Shown: positions 43,104 through 50,114 of the stretch, piece after piece | Layout: each line of letters begins with the position of its first letter | Position numbering within the stretch: the first letter of the stretch is position 1 | Assembly (NCBI RefSeq): GCF_001426185.1 | Contig: NZ_LMRP01000002.1 | Span: 62,157-126,156 of the forward strand | Reading direction: 5' to 3' | DNA: 64,000 bases | Source: Rhodococcus sp. Leaf247 | GTDB lineage: Bacteria; Actinomycetota; Actinomycetes; Mycobacteriales; Mycobacteriaceae | Notes under the pieces: generated by a model | What the model was told of the DNA's origin: nothing | Databases searched by the model: none | The model's input: the letters and a program-made list of their open reading frames with translations, nothing else | Program-made: the position numbers and the translations under genes

Positions 43104-44501
<1,398 letters not shown>

Positions 44502-44508
44502 GGACACC

Positions 44509-45975
44509 ATGACGATTCCCACCACCGAGCACCAGGGCGCCGACGAGGCCCTCCACGCCGCCGAGAACGACGGCTATCACAAGGGTTTGAAAACGCGGCA
44601 GGTCCAGATGATCGCCATCGGCGGCGCGATCGGAACCGGCCTCTTCATGGGTGCCGGTGGGCGGCTCGCGCAAGCCGGCCCGGCACTCGTCATCGCCTAC
44701 GCGGTCTGCGGGTTCTTCGCATTTCTCATTCTGCGCGCGCTGGGCGAACTGGTTCTGCATCGTCCGACATCCGGGTCGTTCGTCTCCTACGCCCGTGAAT
44801 TCTTCGGTGAGAAGGCAGCATTCGTCTCCGGATGGCTCTACTGGCTGAACTGGTCGATGACCGCAGTCGTCGACGTGACCGCCGTGGCGCTGTACATGAA
44901 CTTCTTCGGGCGGTACTGGGATCCGATCGCCTCGGTCCCGCAGTGGGTCTTCGCGCTCGCCGCACTGGTGCTGGTTCTGTCCCTGAACCTGGTGTCGGTG
45001 AAAGTGTTCGGGGAACTCGAATTCTGGTTCGCCTTGATCAAGGTCGTCGCCCTGGTCGCATTCCTGTGCATCGGGCTCTTCCTCCTCGTGAAGGGGACAC
45101 CGAACCAGGAGCAGGGATTGTCGATGATCGCCGACAACGGCGGTCTGATTCCCAACGGTCTGCTGCCCGCCGTCGTCATCATCCAGGGCGTCGTCTTCGC
45201 CTACGCCTCTATCGAGCTGGTCGGCACCGCCGCGGGCGAGACGCCGAACCCCGAGAAGGTCATCCCGAAGGCGATCAACACCGTCATCATTCGTATCGCC
45301 GTCTTCTACGTCGGGTCGGTGCTCCTGTTGTCGCTGCTTCTTCCCTACTCCGCCTACCGGGCCGGTGAGAGCCCGTTCGTCACGTTCTTCGGATCGATCG
45401 GAGTCGAGGGTGCCGACACGGCCATGAATCTCATCGTTCTCACCGCGGCCCTGTCGTCTCTCAATGCCGGTCTGTATTCGACCGGACGCATTCTGCGGTC
45501 CATGGCCGCTGCCGGAAGCGCGCCGCGCTTCGCGATGAAGATGAGCAAGGCCGGCGTGCCCTACGGCGGGATCCTGCTGACGGCAGCGGTTACTCTGCTC
45601 GGAGTGGTGCTCAACGCCGTCGTTCCGGAGCAAGCTTTCGAGATCGTGCTGAATCTCGCGGCACTCGGCATCGTCAGCGCGTGGGCCATGATCGTGCTGT
45701 GCCAGCTCAAGCTCTGGCACCTGTCGAAGGAGGGCGTGGTGGCGCGGCCGTCCTTCCGGTTGTTCGGCGCCCCGTACACCGGCATCGCCACCCTGGTCTT
45801 CCTGGTGGTCGTCCTGATCCTGATGGGCTTCGACTACCCGATCGGCACCTGGACGCTGGCCTCCCTTTTGGTGATCGTTCCCGCGCTGGCCATCGGCTGG
45901 CGCGCGGCGCGCCCGGGCATCGAGCGTCTCGCCCGCGAGCGTGCTCGTGCGGGAGGGGGAACGGTCGCCCGATGA
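44509..45975 (+). CDS. ansP: Amino acid permease, probable L-asparagine permease
   Basis: A 488-residue 12-helix amino acid/polyamine/cation transporter of the AAT family. [25 protein letters not shown] in helix 1, [44 protein letters not shown] and [26 protein letters not shown] are family signatures; the W-N-W and DVTA pattern is close to asparagine permeases. ATG at 44509 lies 7 nt after the aspA stop; its stop overlaps the asparaginase start (ATGA). Placement between aspA and ansA supports asparagine (or aspartate) uptake. Confidence 0.87.
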
Positions 45976-46922
45976 GCTCACCCGCACTGCCGACGGTCGT
46001 CGTCCTGACCACCGGCGGAACCATCGCCAGCCGCGTCGGCCCCGACGGTGTCAGCACAACGGGCCGTCACGCCCACGACGTCCTTGTGGATGCCGGACTC
46101 CGCGTCGGCGTCCGGGTCCGAGTCACCGACGTCCTGTGCGTCGACAGTGCCGCGATGTCGCTCCTCGACATGGACACCGTCCGCGGCGCCGTCACCGATG
46201 CGCTGCGTGACGACGCGGTGAGCGGTGTCGTCGTCCTGCACGGCACCGACTCCCTCGAGGAGACGGCGATGCTGATCGATCTCTCCCACACCGACGTTCG
46301 CCCCGTCGTGTTGACCGGCGCTCAGCGCACCGCGGATCACGTCGAGAGTGACGGCCCGCGCAACATCGAGTCAGCGCTCCGGGTGGCCGCCGATCCCGAG
46401 CGACGAGGGCACGGTGTGCTCGTCGCCTTCGGTCCGCACGTGCTGCGCGCCCGCGGGGTACGCAAGTCGCACACGACCGCACTCGACGCCTACTCCGGCA
46501 CGCCGGCGGTCGACCCGGTTCCGCGGGAGACGCTGCCGGACAGTCCGATCGACGGGATCCGGGTCGACGTGGTCGCGCTCTACCCGGGTGTCGACGGACT
46601 CGTCATCGACGCACTGCGATCCGCGCGCACCGACGGGATCGTCCTGCAGGCGATGGGCGCGGGCAACGCGAACGCCGCGGTCGTCGACGCGGTGCGCCGA
46701 TGCACCGACGCCGGCGTCCCGGTGATGCTGTCGACGCGGGTGCCGTCCGGCGGCGTCCTCACGACCTACGGCGGCGGCGGCGGGGGCGCCGACCTGGTGC
46801 GTGCCGGTGCGGTGTCCGCGGGCGACCTCAGTCCCGCCCAGGCACGAATCCTGCTGTGCGCGTTGCTGAGCAACCGCCTACCCGTCACAGCGGACCTGGC
46901 ATCGATCAGTACTGCTCGGTGA
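45972..46922 (+). CDS. ansA: L-asparaginase, type I/II family
   Basis: A 316-residue asparaginase hydrolysing asparagine to aspartate and ammonia. Catalytic elements are present: [10 protein letters not shown] (T17), [11 protein letters not shown] (T92-D93), LTGAQR and [16 protein letters not shown] with the conserved lysine. No signal peptide is seen, so the enzyme is cytosolic. It overlaps the permease gene by 4 nt and the convergent XRE-cupin gene by 17 nt. With ansP and aspA it completes import of asparagine and conversion to fumarate. Confidence 0.92.
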
Positions 46923-47534: not shown

Positions 47535-48257
47535 ATGAGCACCATGCGTTCGATATGGCGAACACCTCTGTGGCTCACGCTCCGGGACGATCCCGACGTG
47601 GCGGTGCGGGACATCGCCGTGGTGTGCCTGGCCGACGCCCTGGTCGGTGCCTCGCTCGGGGCGATCGCCGTCGCGTCCGACCTGCCGTGGTGGCTCCCTT
47701 GCCTGCTGTCGATCGCGGTGTTCGCCGGAGCCTCACAGTTCGTCTTCGTCGGAGTACTGACCAGCGGGGGCAGCGTTCTGGCCGCAGTGTCGAGCGCACT
47801 CCTCATCAACGGCAGACTGCTTCCGCTCAGCTTCTCGGTGGCACCGCTGCTCGGTGACCGACCTGCCGCACGATTGCTCGGTGCCCATCTGGTCACCGAC
47901 GAGTCGGTCGCCTTCTCGATGGCCTCGACCACCAGTCGGGGCAGGACCCTCTCGTTCTGGTTCTGCGGCGCGTTCCTCTTCGTCGCATGGAATCTGGGCG
48001 TACTGGCCGGCGTGGGCCTCGGCGCCGGTGTGGAGAGCGCGGAGTCACTCGGACTCGACGCCGCCTTTCCTGCCATCCTCCTCGCCCTCGTGATGCCCTC
48101 CCTGCGCGATCGGGTGACGCGCATCGCCGCGGGCGTCGGCGCCGCCGTCGCCGTCGCCGCGGGCGTCGTGGTGCCCGCCGGTGTCTCCGTGGTGCTCGCC
48201 CTGATCGCCGTCATGCCGTTCGTGCTCAGATTCGGGCGCAGAAACGACGCCTCGTGA
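47535..48257 (+). CDS. azlC: AzlC-family branched-chain amino acid exporter subunit
   Basis: A 240-residue membrane protein of the AzlC family, the large subunit of a two-component exporter for branched-chain or other hydrophobic amino acids. About five to six helices are seen; GASLGAIAVASDLPWWLPCLLSIAVFAGASQFVFVGVLTSGG is the family core, followed by NGRLLPLSFSVAPLL and a VTDESVAFSM motif. The start overlaps the azlD gene at the 3' end (GTGA). It is divergent from the XRE-cupin regulator, which probably controls it. Confidence 0.88.
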   Translation: MSTMRSIWRTPLWLTLRDDPDVAVRDIAVVCLADALVGASLGAIAVASDLPWWLPCLLSIAVFAGASQFVFVGVLTSGGSVLAAVSSALLINGRLLPLSFSVAPLLGDRPAARLLGAHLVTDESVAFSMASTTSRGRTLSFWFCGAFLFVAWNLGVLAGVGLGAGVESAESLGLDAAFPAILLALVMPSLRDRVTRIAAGVGAAVAVAAGVVVPAGVSVVLALIAVMPFVLRFGRRNDAS

Positions 48258-48565
48258 GCACCGGGGCCATTCTCGCGGGCGTTGCCGCACTCGCCGTCGG
48301 AACGTTCGCGCTGCGCCTGATCGGAATCGCGCTACGCGGACGGCGTGAGCTGTCCGCGTCGGCCGAGAAGTCGATGACCACCGCGGTCGCCGTCGTCTTC
48401 GTCGCCCTCGTCGCCACCTCGACGTTCCCCCGCGACGCGGGCCTCGCACTACCCGTGGGCGTCCTCGTGGCCGCGTTCCTCGCCTGGCGCAGAGCACCTT
48501 TCGTGCTCGTGGTCGTCGCTGCAGCGGCAGTCACCGCGGGTCTGCGATGGCTCGGCGTCAGCTGA
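48254..48565 (+). CDS. azlD: AzlD-family exporter small subunit
   Basis: A 103-residue, four-helix membrane protein of the AzlD family, obligate partner of AzlC. It has the typical LRLIGIALRGRRELSASAEKSMTTAVAVVFVALVA segment and a basic loop WRRAP before the last helix. GTG at 48254 overlaps the azlC stop by 4 nt, so both subunits are co-translated. The gene ends 14 nt before the leaderless-type promoter of the leader peptide, so the next unit is transcribed separately. Confidence 0.85.
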   Translation: MSTGAILAGVAALAVGTFALRLIGIALRGRRELSASAEKSMTTAVAVVFVALVATSTFPRDAGLALPVGVLVAAFLAWRRAPFVLVVVAAAAVTAGLRWLGVS

Positions 48566-48579
48566 CCCGGGCACGGGCG

Positions 48580-48585
48580 TAGCAT
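48580..48585 (+). promoter_or_regulatory. Candidate -10 box TAGCAT for the leaderless leader peptide
   Basis: TANNNT hexamer followed by exactly 7 nt and the GTG at 48593, so transcription probably begins at the leader-peptide start codon itself. Confidence 0.55.
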
Positions 48586-48592
48586 CGTCCGA

Positions 48593-48661
48593 GTGCCTCT
48601 GCTCCTGACATCGCGTCGCTACGTCGACCTTCGCCTGCAGGCCAGCGCCATCTGTCGATAG
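48593..48661 (+). CDS. 22-aa leader peptide (RRYVDLRLQASAICR type) upstream of a DAACS symporter
   Basis: A 22-codon reading frame, GTG start and TAG stop, giving MPLLLTSRRYVDLRLQASAI followed by C-R. It matches the actinobacterial putative leader peptides of the form RR.HVDL.R.ASA.CR, which I recall lying upstream of sulfur-assimilation genes and thought to act as cysteine-responsive attenuators. A leaderless-type -10 box precedes it and the symporter ATG follows 91 nt after the stop. A 6-bp stem (48705-48726, CGGCCG arms) lies in the spacer. The Cys-Arg codons just before the stop are the likely sensing site. Too short for routine gene calling. Confidence 0.75.
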   Translation: MPLLLTSRRYVDLRLQASAICR

Positions 48662-48752
48662 ACCGTGTTCCTCCCCGGTCTCTTCGTCCACCGCGCACCC
48701 TTTTCGGCCGTTGTCGTCCTCGGCCGCCCCAGCATTCTCGGAAGGCTCCACC

Positions 48753-50114
48753 ATGTCCGCGCCCAGCGCTGCCCCCACCCGTCGACTGCCGCACTGGCTC
48801 ACGTCGTTCGGGCCTCAGATCGTCGCCGGGTTGATCCTCGGCGTCGTCATCGGCCTCATCGCTCGATCCATGCCCGACGCCGCCGACGGTAATCCCAACT
48901 GGCTCGTCGAAACCGTCTCGACCATCGGATCGAGCTACGTCAAACTGCTCACCGTCGCCGTGGTTCCCCTCGTGTTCACGGCCATCGTCAGCTCCATCGC
49001 CAATCTGCGCGCCGTGACCAACGCGGCTCGCCTGGCAGGCCAGACCCTGCTGTGGTTCGCCATCACCGCGTTCATCGCCGTGATCGTCGGCATCATCATC
49101 GGTCTTGTCGCGCAACCGGGTTCGCGGACCGGGGTATCTGCGGCATTGGAGGAGGCACCGTCGAGCACGGGTTCGTGGTGGTCGTTCCTCACCGGCCTCG
49201 TCCCGAACAATTTCCTGGCACTGGGCGCCCGGACCAGCGAGACCGAGGGCGCACTGAGCACCACACTGAACTTCAACATCCTGCAGCTGCTGGTCGTCGC
49301 GGCGGCCATCGGCATCGCCGCGTTGAAGGTCGGCAAGGCTGCCGAGCCGTTCCTGACCTTCAACGCCTCGCTGCTCGCGATCGTGCAGAAGGTGCTGTGG
49401 TGGATCATCCGGTTGGCCCCGATCGGTACGGCGGCGCTGATCGCCAACGCCGTCGCCACGTACGGCTGGGACGCGATCGGTTCGCTGGGCGTGTTCACGG
49501 TGTCGGTGTACGTCGGACTGGCAAGCGTGTTCTTCGTCGTCTACCCGATCATCGTTCGGGCGCACGGTCTCTCGATCCGCAACTTCTACTCCGGCGTGTG
49601 GCCCGCAACGCAGCTCGGCTTCGTCTCCCGCTCGTCCATCGGCACTCTGCCGCTGACCCAGCGCGTCACCGAGCGCAATCTCGGTGTGCCCCGCGAGTAC
49701 GCATCGTTCGCGGTGCCTCTGGGCGCCACCACCAAGATGGACGGCTGCGCCGCCATCTATCCCGCGATCGCCGCGATCTTCGTCGCGCAGTTCTACGGCG
49801 TGAACCTGACGCTCACCGACTACCTGCTGATCGTGGTCGTGTCCGTCGTCGGCTCCGCCGCGACGGCCGGAACCACCGGTGCCACCGTCATGCTCACCCT
49901 GACGCTGTCGACTCTGGGGCTGCCTCTCGCCGGCGTCGGCCTGCTGCTCGCCGTCGAGCCGATCGTCGACATGGGCCGCACCGCCGTCAACGTCACCGGC
50001 CAGGCGTTGATCCCGACCATCGTCGCCAAGCGCGAGGGCATCCTGGACCAGGAGCGATTCGACGCCCCGCGCAACGGCGACCCGTTCGTCGACGACGTGG
50101 AGCTCGCGCGCTAA
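48753..50114 (+). CDS. DAACS-family dicarboxylate/amino acid:cation symporter
   Basis: A 453-residue glutamate-transporter-homologue fold (DAACS), importing glutamate, C4-dicarboxylates or cystine with cations. Signatures are VKLLTVAVVPLVFTAIVSSI, SRSSIGTLPLT (HP1-like serine hairpin), LGATTKMDGCAAIYPAIAAIF and VVGSAATAGTTGATVM (HP2), and EPIVDMGRTAVNVTGQ in helix 8. The ATG at 48753 is preceded by GGAAGG; upstream in-frame codons run into the leader region. The family includes the cystine carrier TcyP. The leader peptide upstream suggests sulfur or cysteine control, hence possibly cystine uptake; that is inference. Stop overlaps the convergent 50111 gene. Confidence 0.87.
   Translation: MSAPSAAPTRRLPHWLTSFGPQIVAGLILGVVIGLIARSMPDAADGNPNWLVETVSTIGSSYVKLLTVAVVPLVFTAIVSSIANLRAVTNAARLAGQTLLWFAITAFIAVIVGIIIGLVAQPGSRTGVSAALEEAPSSTGSWWSFLTGLVPNNFLALGARTSETEGALSTTLNFNILQLLVVAAAIGIAALKVGKAAEPFLTFNASLLAIVQKVLWWIIRLAPIGTAALIANAVATYGWDAIGSLGVFTVSVYVGLASVFFVVYPIIVRAHGLSIRNFYSGVWPATQLGFVSRSSIGTLPLTQRVTERNLGVPREYASFAVPLGATTKMDGCAAIYPAIAAIFVAQFYGVNLTLTDYLLIVVVSVVGSAATAGTTGATVMLTLTLSTLGLPLAGVGLLLAVEPIVDMGRTAVNVTGQALIPTIVAKREGILDQERFDAPRNGDPFVDDVELAR

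Follow-up and report, generated by a model that had tools for sequence, protein, structure and literature searches.

In the 64,000-nucleotide stretch of Rhodococcus sp. Leaf247 DNA analyzed here (the window), a short reading frame of 22 codons with a GTG start and a TAG stop (48593..48661, plus strand; VPLLLTSRRYVDLRLQASAICR) lies upstream of a gene encoding a DAACS symporter of 453 amino acids (48753..50114, plus strand, ATG at 48753). We propose as a probable explanation that this frame is a leaderless cysteine leader peptide which controls the symporter gene by cysteine supply through an attenuator, possibly Rho-dependent, and that the symporter is an importer of the cystine type. Sequence comparison supports the leader itself, its leaderless start, the selection on its peptide, its lasting link to the symporter gene and its fixed UGU codon; cysteine as the signal, the direction of control, the part of Rho and the substrate are what we infer.

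Results

The leader reading frame and its start

The original prediction had placed a GTG...TAG leader frame, with a TAGCAT hexamer exactly 7 nt upstream, before a gene of the DAACS family. Translation confirmed the 22-codon frame, the hexamer was found at 48580..48585 (plus strand), 7 nt 5' of the GTG, as a putative -10 hexamer of the form TANNNT, and the downstream product matched PF00375 (SDF) with 340.7 bits, above the gathering score of 27.9 (E 1.5e-101). The peptide ends in Cys-Arg-stop, and its single Cys codon, TGT (UGU in the RNA; 48653..48655, plus strand), is the proposed regulatory codon, at position 11 when the V of 'VD' is counted as 1. The 91-nt spacer that follows the leader (48662..48752, plus strand) is C-rich and G-poor, a candidate Rho-loading (rut-like) stretch, and it includes the Shine-Dalgarno sequence of the symporter gene, GGAAGG (48740..48745, plus strand), whose AAGG was invariant in an alignment of 16 loci. 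Genes for AzlC- and AzlD-like proteins lie directly 5' of the locus.

When distinct Rhodococcus-type loci were scanned for TANNNT at 5-9 nt before the leader GTG, the hexamer was present 6-8 nt before it in 38 of 38, and at 7 nt in 35. Because this position is kept in all 38 orthologs, the leader start looks leaderless, with the transcript apparently starting at the GTG itself. Thus, the comparison supports the leaderless architecture that had been suggested from the window alone.

Conservation and spread of the leader

A close ortholog of the symporter was found in 28 of 37 same-genus genomes (own genome included) and was missing from nine, and every one of the 28 orthologs has the leader upstream. 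Together with ten further distinct named Rhodococcus/Prescottella loci that also have it, the leader is present at 38 of 38 Rhodococcus-type orthologs. The leaders of four Rhodococcus-type loci (L051, L054, L056 and L062) have VDN instead of VDL and are missed by the VDL pattern; among 13 pattern-negative loci whose upstream frames were read individually, a leader was present in four (VDN type) and in none of the other nine, the remaining leader-negative loci being judged by a pattern that leaders of other shape could escape. Across 29 distinct leader core sequences pN/pS was 0.24, which indicates that the peptide sequence is kept by selection. Conservation among relatives, one of the tests on which the original prediction had staked the leader, was borne out.

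To follow the leader further, we surveyed 122 distinct DAACS loci, of which 57 have the leader and 65 have no detected leader; as the loci were drawn from the best 80 of 585 named relatives plus a phylum sample in which 21 of 396 genomes matched, the share of 57/122 is not a frequency. Six named loci judged to be duplicates were removed before this count, one locus with 211 nt of upstream DNA and no motif (L132) was excluded from it, and two loci with short upstream DNA (43 and 371 nt) were scored negative. Beyond the 38 Rhodococcus-type loci, positives came from genus g27 (9 of 9 matched genomes), genus g15 (2 of 2), families f3, f14, f16 and f19 (one each), Cellulosimicrobium (two), Nakamurella (one) and Jiangella (one). 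Since the f-numbered families may overlap the named ones, we give the number of lineages as about ten, or about nine beyond the Rhodococcus type. This spread supports the proposal that leader and DAACS gene have remained linked over a long time. Nearly every other named Micrococcales locus (in Arthrobacter, Microbacterium, Cryobacterium, Leucobacter, Rothia and further genera) lacks a detected leader, as do the Tsukamurella, f17, f20 and f22 loci. The 65 loci with no detected leader indicate that a DAACS gene does not need one. Orthologous symporters with no detected leader are mostly from Micrococcales (L065-L106 and similar), where leader control would have been lost, or else it was gained in the other lineages.

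In control searches, the motif pattern was absent from 78 antisense-upstream and 78 downstream stretches of related loci, and it occurred in 1 of 228 window chunks (560 nt, both strands); the leader itself fits the pattern and may be this one match. None of eight DAACS paralogs has a leader in the 620 nt searched upstream, part of which is coding in at least two of them, where the match starts about 53 residues inside the protein. Inspection of seven loci by eye (no family searches) showed that the flanking genes vary, which makes the leader the only constant neighbour seen.

Resemblance to a family of cysteine leaders

The window peptide matched the NCBIfam model NF042934 ('putative leader peptide') with E 3e-5 and 23.5 bits, 3.5 bits below the cut-off of 27. 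The match is full-length, residues 3-21 covering positions 1-19 of 19, and 5 of 10 counterpart leaders of orthologous symporters exceed the cut-off, the best with 38.5 bits. With NF042933 (Ms5788A) the peptide scored 15.4 bits, below the cut-off of 45, and for NF042936 there was no listed match. Its one Cys leaves no run of contiguous Cys codons; the g27 counterparts (nine loci) carry three to five Cys. When the whole genome was scanned loosely with NF042934 (E up to 10), five places scored above 20 bits and the next score was down at 14 bits; one of the five is over the cut-off, and the window leader is the fifth, at 20.8 bits. The NF042934 match and the counterparts above its cut-off support the kinship with the actinobacterial Cys-leader group that had been named in the original prediction. 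From these comparisons, the frame is most likely a regulatory leader of the actinobacterial Cys-leader kind, the same type of switch as already known. Some large genomes (G083, G183, G232 and others) contain between five and ten leaders that match NF042934.

The four other strong leaders of this genome lie before a NirA/sulfite-reductase-like gene, an amino-acid ABC permease gene, a DUF4395 gene and an ORF of 146 amino acids. The leader of the permease gene (RRLHVDLCRVSTCVCTRCF; L033, contig C1, ~648 kb) precedes a product whose best NCBIfam match is cystine permease (130.6 bits, below the cut-off of 300). The 146-amino-acid ORF (L035, C1, ~1.69 Mb) lies beside a gene for a SufS-like cysteine desulfurase and had no Pfam or NCBIfam match; it is possibly an unknown sulfur gene. 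DUF4395 adjoining cysA2 is what we take to be the setting of Ms5788A.

The fixed Cys codon

All 57 DAACS leaders, found with a pattern that let residue 11 vary, have Cys at this residue, exactly ten residues on from the V, and its codon is TGT in 56 of them, the exception being a TGC in L030. Other Cys codons in the same leader stretches are TGC 19 times and TGT 10 times. UGU is rare in the surroundings: the Cys codons of the window genes are TGT 22 and TGC 103, and the ORFs of seven flanking loci have TGT in 19 of 207. With one leader taken per lineage, TGT stands at position 11 in 9 of 10 (simple binomial 4e-9, which presumes independence and lineages of our own choosing).

We also read NF042934 leaders at large. 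At E <= 1e-4, a threshold that the window's own leader would fail, such leaders were found in 53 of 78 genomes of a class sample and 3 of 41 of a phylum sample. Among 34 loci read from these samples, 30 leaders matched a pattern demanding Cys at position 11, and all 30 have TGT there, kinship being uncorrected in this count; in the same 30 leaders the Cys at position 4 is TGC 19 times and TGT once. A looser pattern matched 30 of the 34 loci; 27 of these have Cys at position 11, always as TGT, and the other three are presumably misread. The nucleotide next after the position-11 UGU is always a pyrimidine in the 30 leaders that matched among the 34 family loci (L163-L196). Two of the four other leaders of the own genome have TGT at position 11 and two break the rule, the DUF4395 leader with TGC and the NirA-like leader with no Cys there. 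By this comparison, NF042934 leaders seem to follow a rule of UGU at position 11 almost throughout the family. In a consensus fold of 16 loci, the UGU is paired with an upstream GCA in a weak predicted hairpin, so that RNA pairing may be what preserves the codon.

The spacer and its RNA

A scan of 48500-48800 for intrinsic terminators and sigma-70 consensus sequences found none, and the sole Rfam match in 48200-48900, to a miRNA model (E 0.41, 19 bits, gathering score 69), was rejected. With its last 14 nt omitted, the window spacer is 0.45 C and 0.21 G. For 20 upstream regions of the window, C minus G had a mean of -0.025 (sd 0.076), and none of the 20 reaches the 0.24 of the spacer. Leader spacers longer than 50 nt (51 of 63 rows, the six duplicates being still among the 63) average C 0.43 and G 0.22, compared with C 0.30 and G 0.28 upstream of 64 leader-less symporters, which are mostly from other genera. 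The spacers behind the four other leaders of this genome are likewise C-rich, one of them being only 26 nt long, and in 30 family rows, three of them probably misread frames, C minus G had a mean of 0.14 over 80 nt after the stop.

The consensus fold of the 16 loci contains 14 pairs, all within the leader or just past its stop, three of them with double changes (covariation term -0.4), and shows no shared structure in the spacer. Taken singly, sequences do fold, the window locus for example with -50 kcal/mol. In the comparative alignment that had been proposed as a check, the leader is kept, but the spacer has no conserved structure, its AAGG being invariant. These data are most simply read as a held ribosome hiding a stretch where Rho loads, which would place Rho slightly ahead of control at the ribosome-binding site, a C-rich spacer alone being no proof of Rho action.

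The symporter

The symporter, a candidate cystine/cysteine-type importer, is 32% identical to TcyP, 30% to GltP, 26% to DctA and 25% to SstT of E. coli. In a tree it stands apart from GltP and DctA (97/98); the TcyP and SstT branches are very long, and TcyP was left unplaced because of this. Among the four E. coli references, only TcyP shares with the symporter a one-residue insertion after the (D/N)G of TM7. Where GltP, DctA, SstT and the solved relatives compared carry Asn in the NxDG/NxAG motif, the symporter carries Lys and TcyP carries Gln. The NMDG of TM7 in solved DAACS relatives is thus KMDG plus one inserted residue here, a possible change of coupling ion. E. coli TcyP is annotated as a cystine/sulfocysteine symporter, and cystine is our best guess for the substrate carried here, one that we hold to be somewhat more likely than not.

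Discussion

In the mechanism that we propose, transcription would begin at the GTG and a 70S ribosome would translate the leader without delay. Under a shortage of charged Cys-tRNA, this ribosome would slow at the UGU near the end of the peptide, perhaps with help from the conserved RR.VDL portion of the growing chain. While held there, it would cover the start of the C-rich spacer, so that transcription would run on into the symporter gene. With ample cysteine, the ribosome would get to the stop two codons on and depart, leaving the C-rich RNA open to Rho, and Rho on the freed spacer would end the transcript early, before the symporter gene. The symporter, once made, would most likely import cystine or a related sulfur amino acid. 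A point against this explanation is that a single Cys codon close to the stop offers a starvation sensor little signal.

A wider proposal, which we put forward tentatively and hold to be somewhat doubtful, is that the actinobacterial Cys leaders share one reading head. The RR..VDL part would set a single Cys codon at position 11, in nearly every case the rarer and wobble-read UGU, as the stall site, peptide and codon would act together, the held ribosome would guard a C-rich Rho-loading spacer, and the actinobacterial cystine symporter would be the DAACS clade that many of these leaders precede. With the nascent peptide and the codon acting together, one codon would suffice where textbook attenuators use runs.

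The same signal could throw a different switch, in which the ribosome, by stalling at the Cys codon, prevents leader RNA from pairing with the ribosome-binding site of the symporter gene. For the cysteine genes of M. smegmatis, control is described as translation attenuation in the consulted part of PMC13236596, and a few of 38 modelled loci do have predicted pairing between the Shine-Dalgarno sequence and the leader (0.95 in L007 and 0.64 in L005) or gain accessibility upon a modelled stall (0.23 to 0.31 in L028 and L029). Over all 38 loci, however, a modelled stall at the Cys codon left the mean Shine-Dalgarno accessibility at 0.306, compared with 0.317 when free, mean pairing with the leader was 0.10, and in the consensus fold of 16 loci pairing goes no farther than the region just past the leader stop. 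Switching between leader and Shine-Dalgarno sequence is thus unsupported on average, and we consider translational attenuation unlikely here. The original claim that the Cys codon exerts control by ribosome stalling stands in part: the fixed register and the fixed UGU mark a natural regulatory codon, but mean folding gives no leader/ribosome-binding-site switch, and no terminator-like site was found. That the frame has no regulatory role at all, being a chance or decaying small frame or a trans-acting small protein, would agree with a score below the NF042934 cut-off, yet is hardly credible given its conservation in 38 of 38 orthologs, its pN/pS, its fixed place before the gene, the fixed register and codon and control rates near zero; a trans-acting protein, moreover, would not need one synonymous Cys codon.

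Another way to divide signal from substrate is that cysteine is what the leader senses and an acidic amino acid, such as aspartate, glutamate or cysteine sulfinate, is what the symporter takes up, with the tie to cysteine running through precursor demand or thiol balance. The symporter retains the Asp/Arg/Thr/Asn pattern of acidic amino-acid carriers, its relatives of known structure are mostly aspartate/glutamate transporters, and the best solved ones are aspartate transporters; nevertheless, its Asp-Met-Gly-Arg-Thr...Asn pattern is common to TcyP and an archaeal transporter of known structure, and TcyP has the cystine/sulfocysteine annotation. In the window, genes for aspartate ammonia-lyase, an L-asparagine-permease-like protein and asparaginase lie in a row at 43104-46922, and aspartate ammonia-lyase and permease genes also adjoin the symporter in one other genome (G004, L155). 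They are absent from the other six of the seven loci inspected, where the neighbours differ, and a functional tie to the aspartate/asparagine genes is weakened by this. The other Cys leaders of the own genome, furthermore, are largely at sulfur-related genes. An acidic substrate therefore seems to us improbable, and we prefer the reading of the symporter as an importer of the cystine type.

Several known systems resemble the one proposed. As described in the consulted part of PMC4633059, Ms5788A and Ms4527A (NF042933 and NF042936) are Cys-rich leaders before cysA2 and nirA in mycobacteria. The window leader resembles them in its RR.VDL-type core, in a Cys near the stop and in being the first and probably leaderless ORF before the gene, and its own genome has leaders before NirA-like and DUF4395 genes; it differs in lying far below the NF042933 cut-off, in having one Cys and no Cys run and in having a DAACS target. 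NF042934, annotated as cis_reg_atten, is matched over all 19 positions, and half of the ten counterparts exceed its cut-off, whereas the model name gives no target or mechanism and the window copy falls short of it. The leaders of the cys operon and cbs (Seliverstov et al. 2005, PMC1262725) likewise have Cys codons by the stop and no terminator hairpin, and Rho was proposed for them, in the portion of that paper drawn on here; unlike the window leader, they have runs of Cys codons, and their targets are cys or cbs genes, not transporters. The authors suggest Rho for the cys-operon leaders and call their own prediction rather weak. According to the part of PMC9031893 consulted, leaderless ORFs of M. 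smegmatis have cysteine codons by which the genes after them are regulated, and parts of PMC8079986 and PMC9094748 were further literature drawn on.

For the symporter, E. coli TcyP (YdjN) offers a parallel. In the account of PMC4383340, as far as consulted, E. coli runs DAACS and ABC cystine importers side by side; this genome similarly has Cys leaders before a DAACS gene and a cystine-permease-like gene. TcyP differs in that the control proposed is by CysB at the promoter (same source), in its identity of only about a third to the symporter and in that the tree does not join them. For the switch, the proposed logic is that of TnaC of the E. coli tna operon, in which the ribosome halts as it finishes a short leader and so masks a stretch where Rho would load. 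TnaC responds to free tryptophan by means of an arrest peptide; the window leader, by contrast, is presumed to sense Cys-tRNA, and its Rho part is proposed. The tna operon is named as a Rho parallel in the part of PMC1262725 consulted.

The type of switch is known, and the link to a DAACS transporter and the fixed rare Cys codon look new. Among the matches listed in a search of titles and abstract openings, with few subscription journals in its scope, none dealt with a Cys leader in front of a DAACS gene, and the position-11 UGU rule is absent from the consulted parts of the Cys-leader accounts cited here. A UGU at a fixed distance from a peptide motif could bear on what such leaders read, be it the number of Cys codons, the nascent peptide or the two together. 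The locus also raises the question of Rho instead of hairpins as the switch where intrinsic terminators are few, as is stated for mycobacteria in the portion of PMC1262725 consulted. If our explanation is true, it would provide a substrate hypothesis for a symporter clade that has no stated substrate in the sources consulted, and cysteine-responsive leader control, known for sulfur genes, would in many actinobacteria also reach a secondary transporter.
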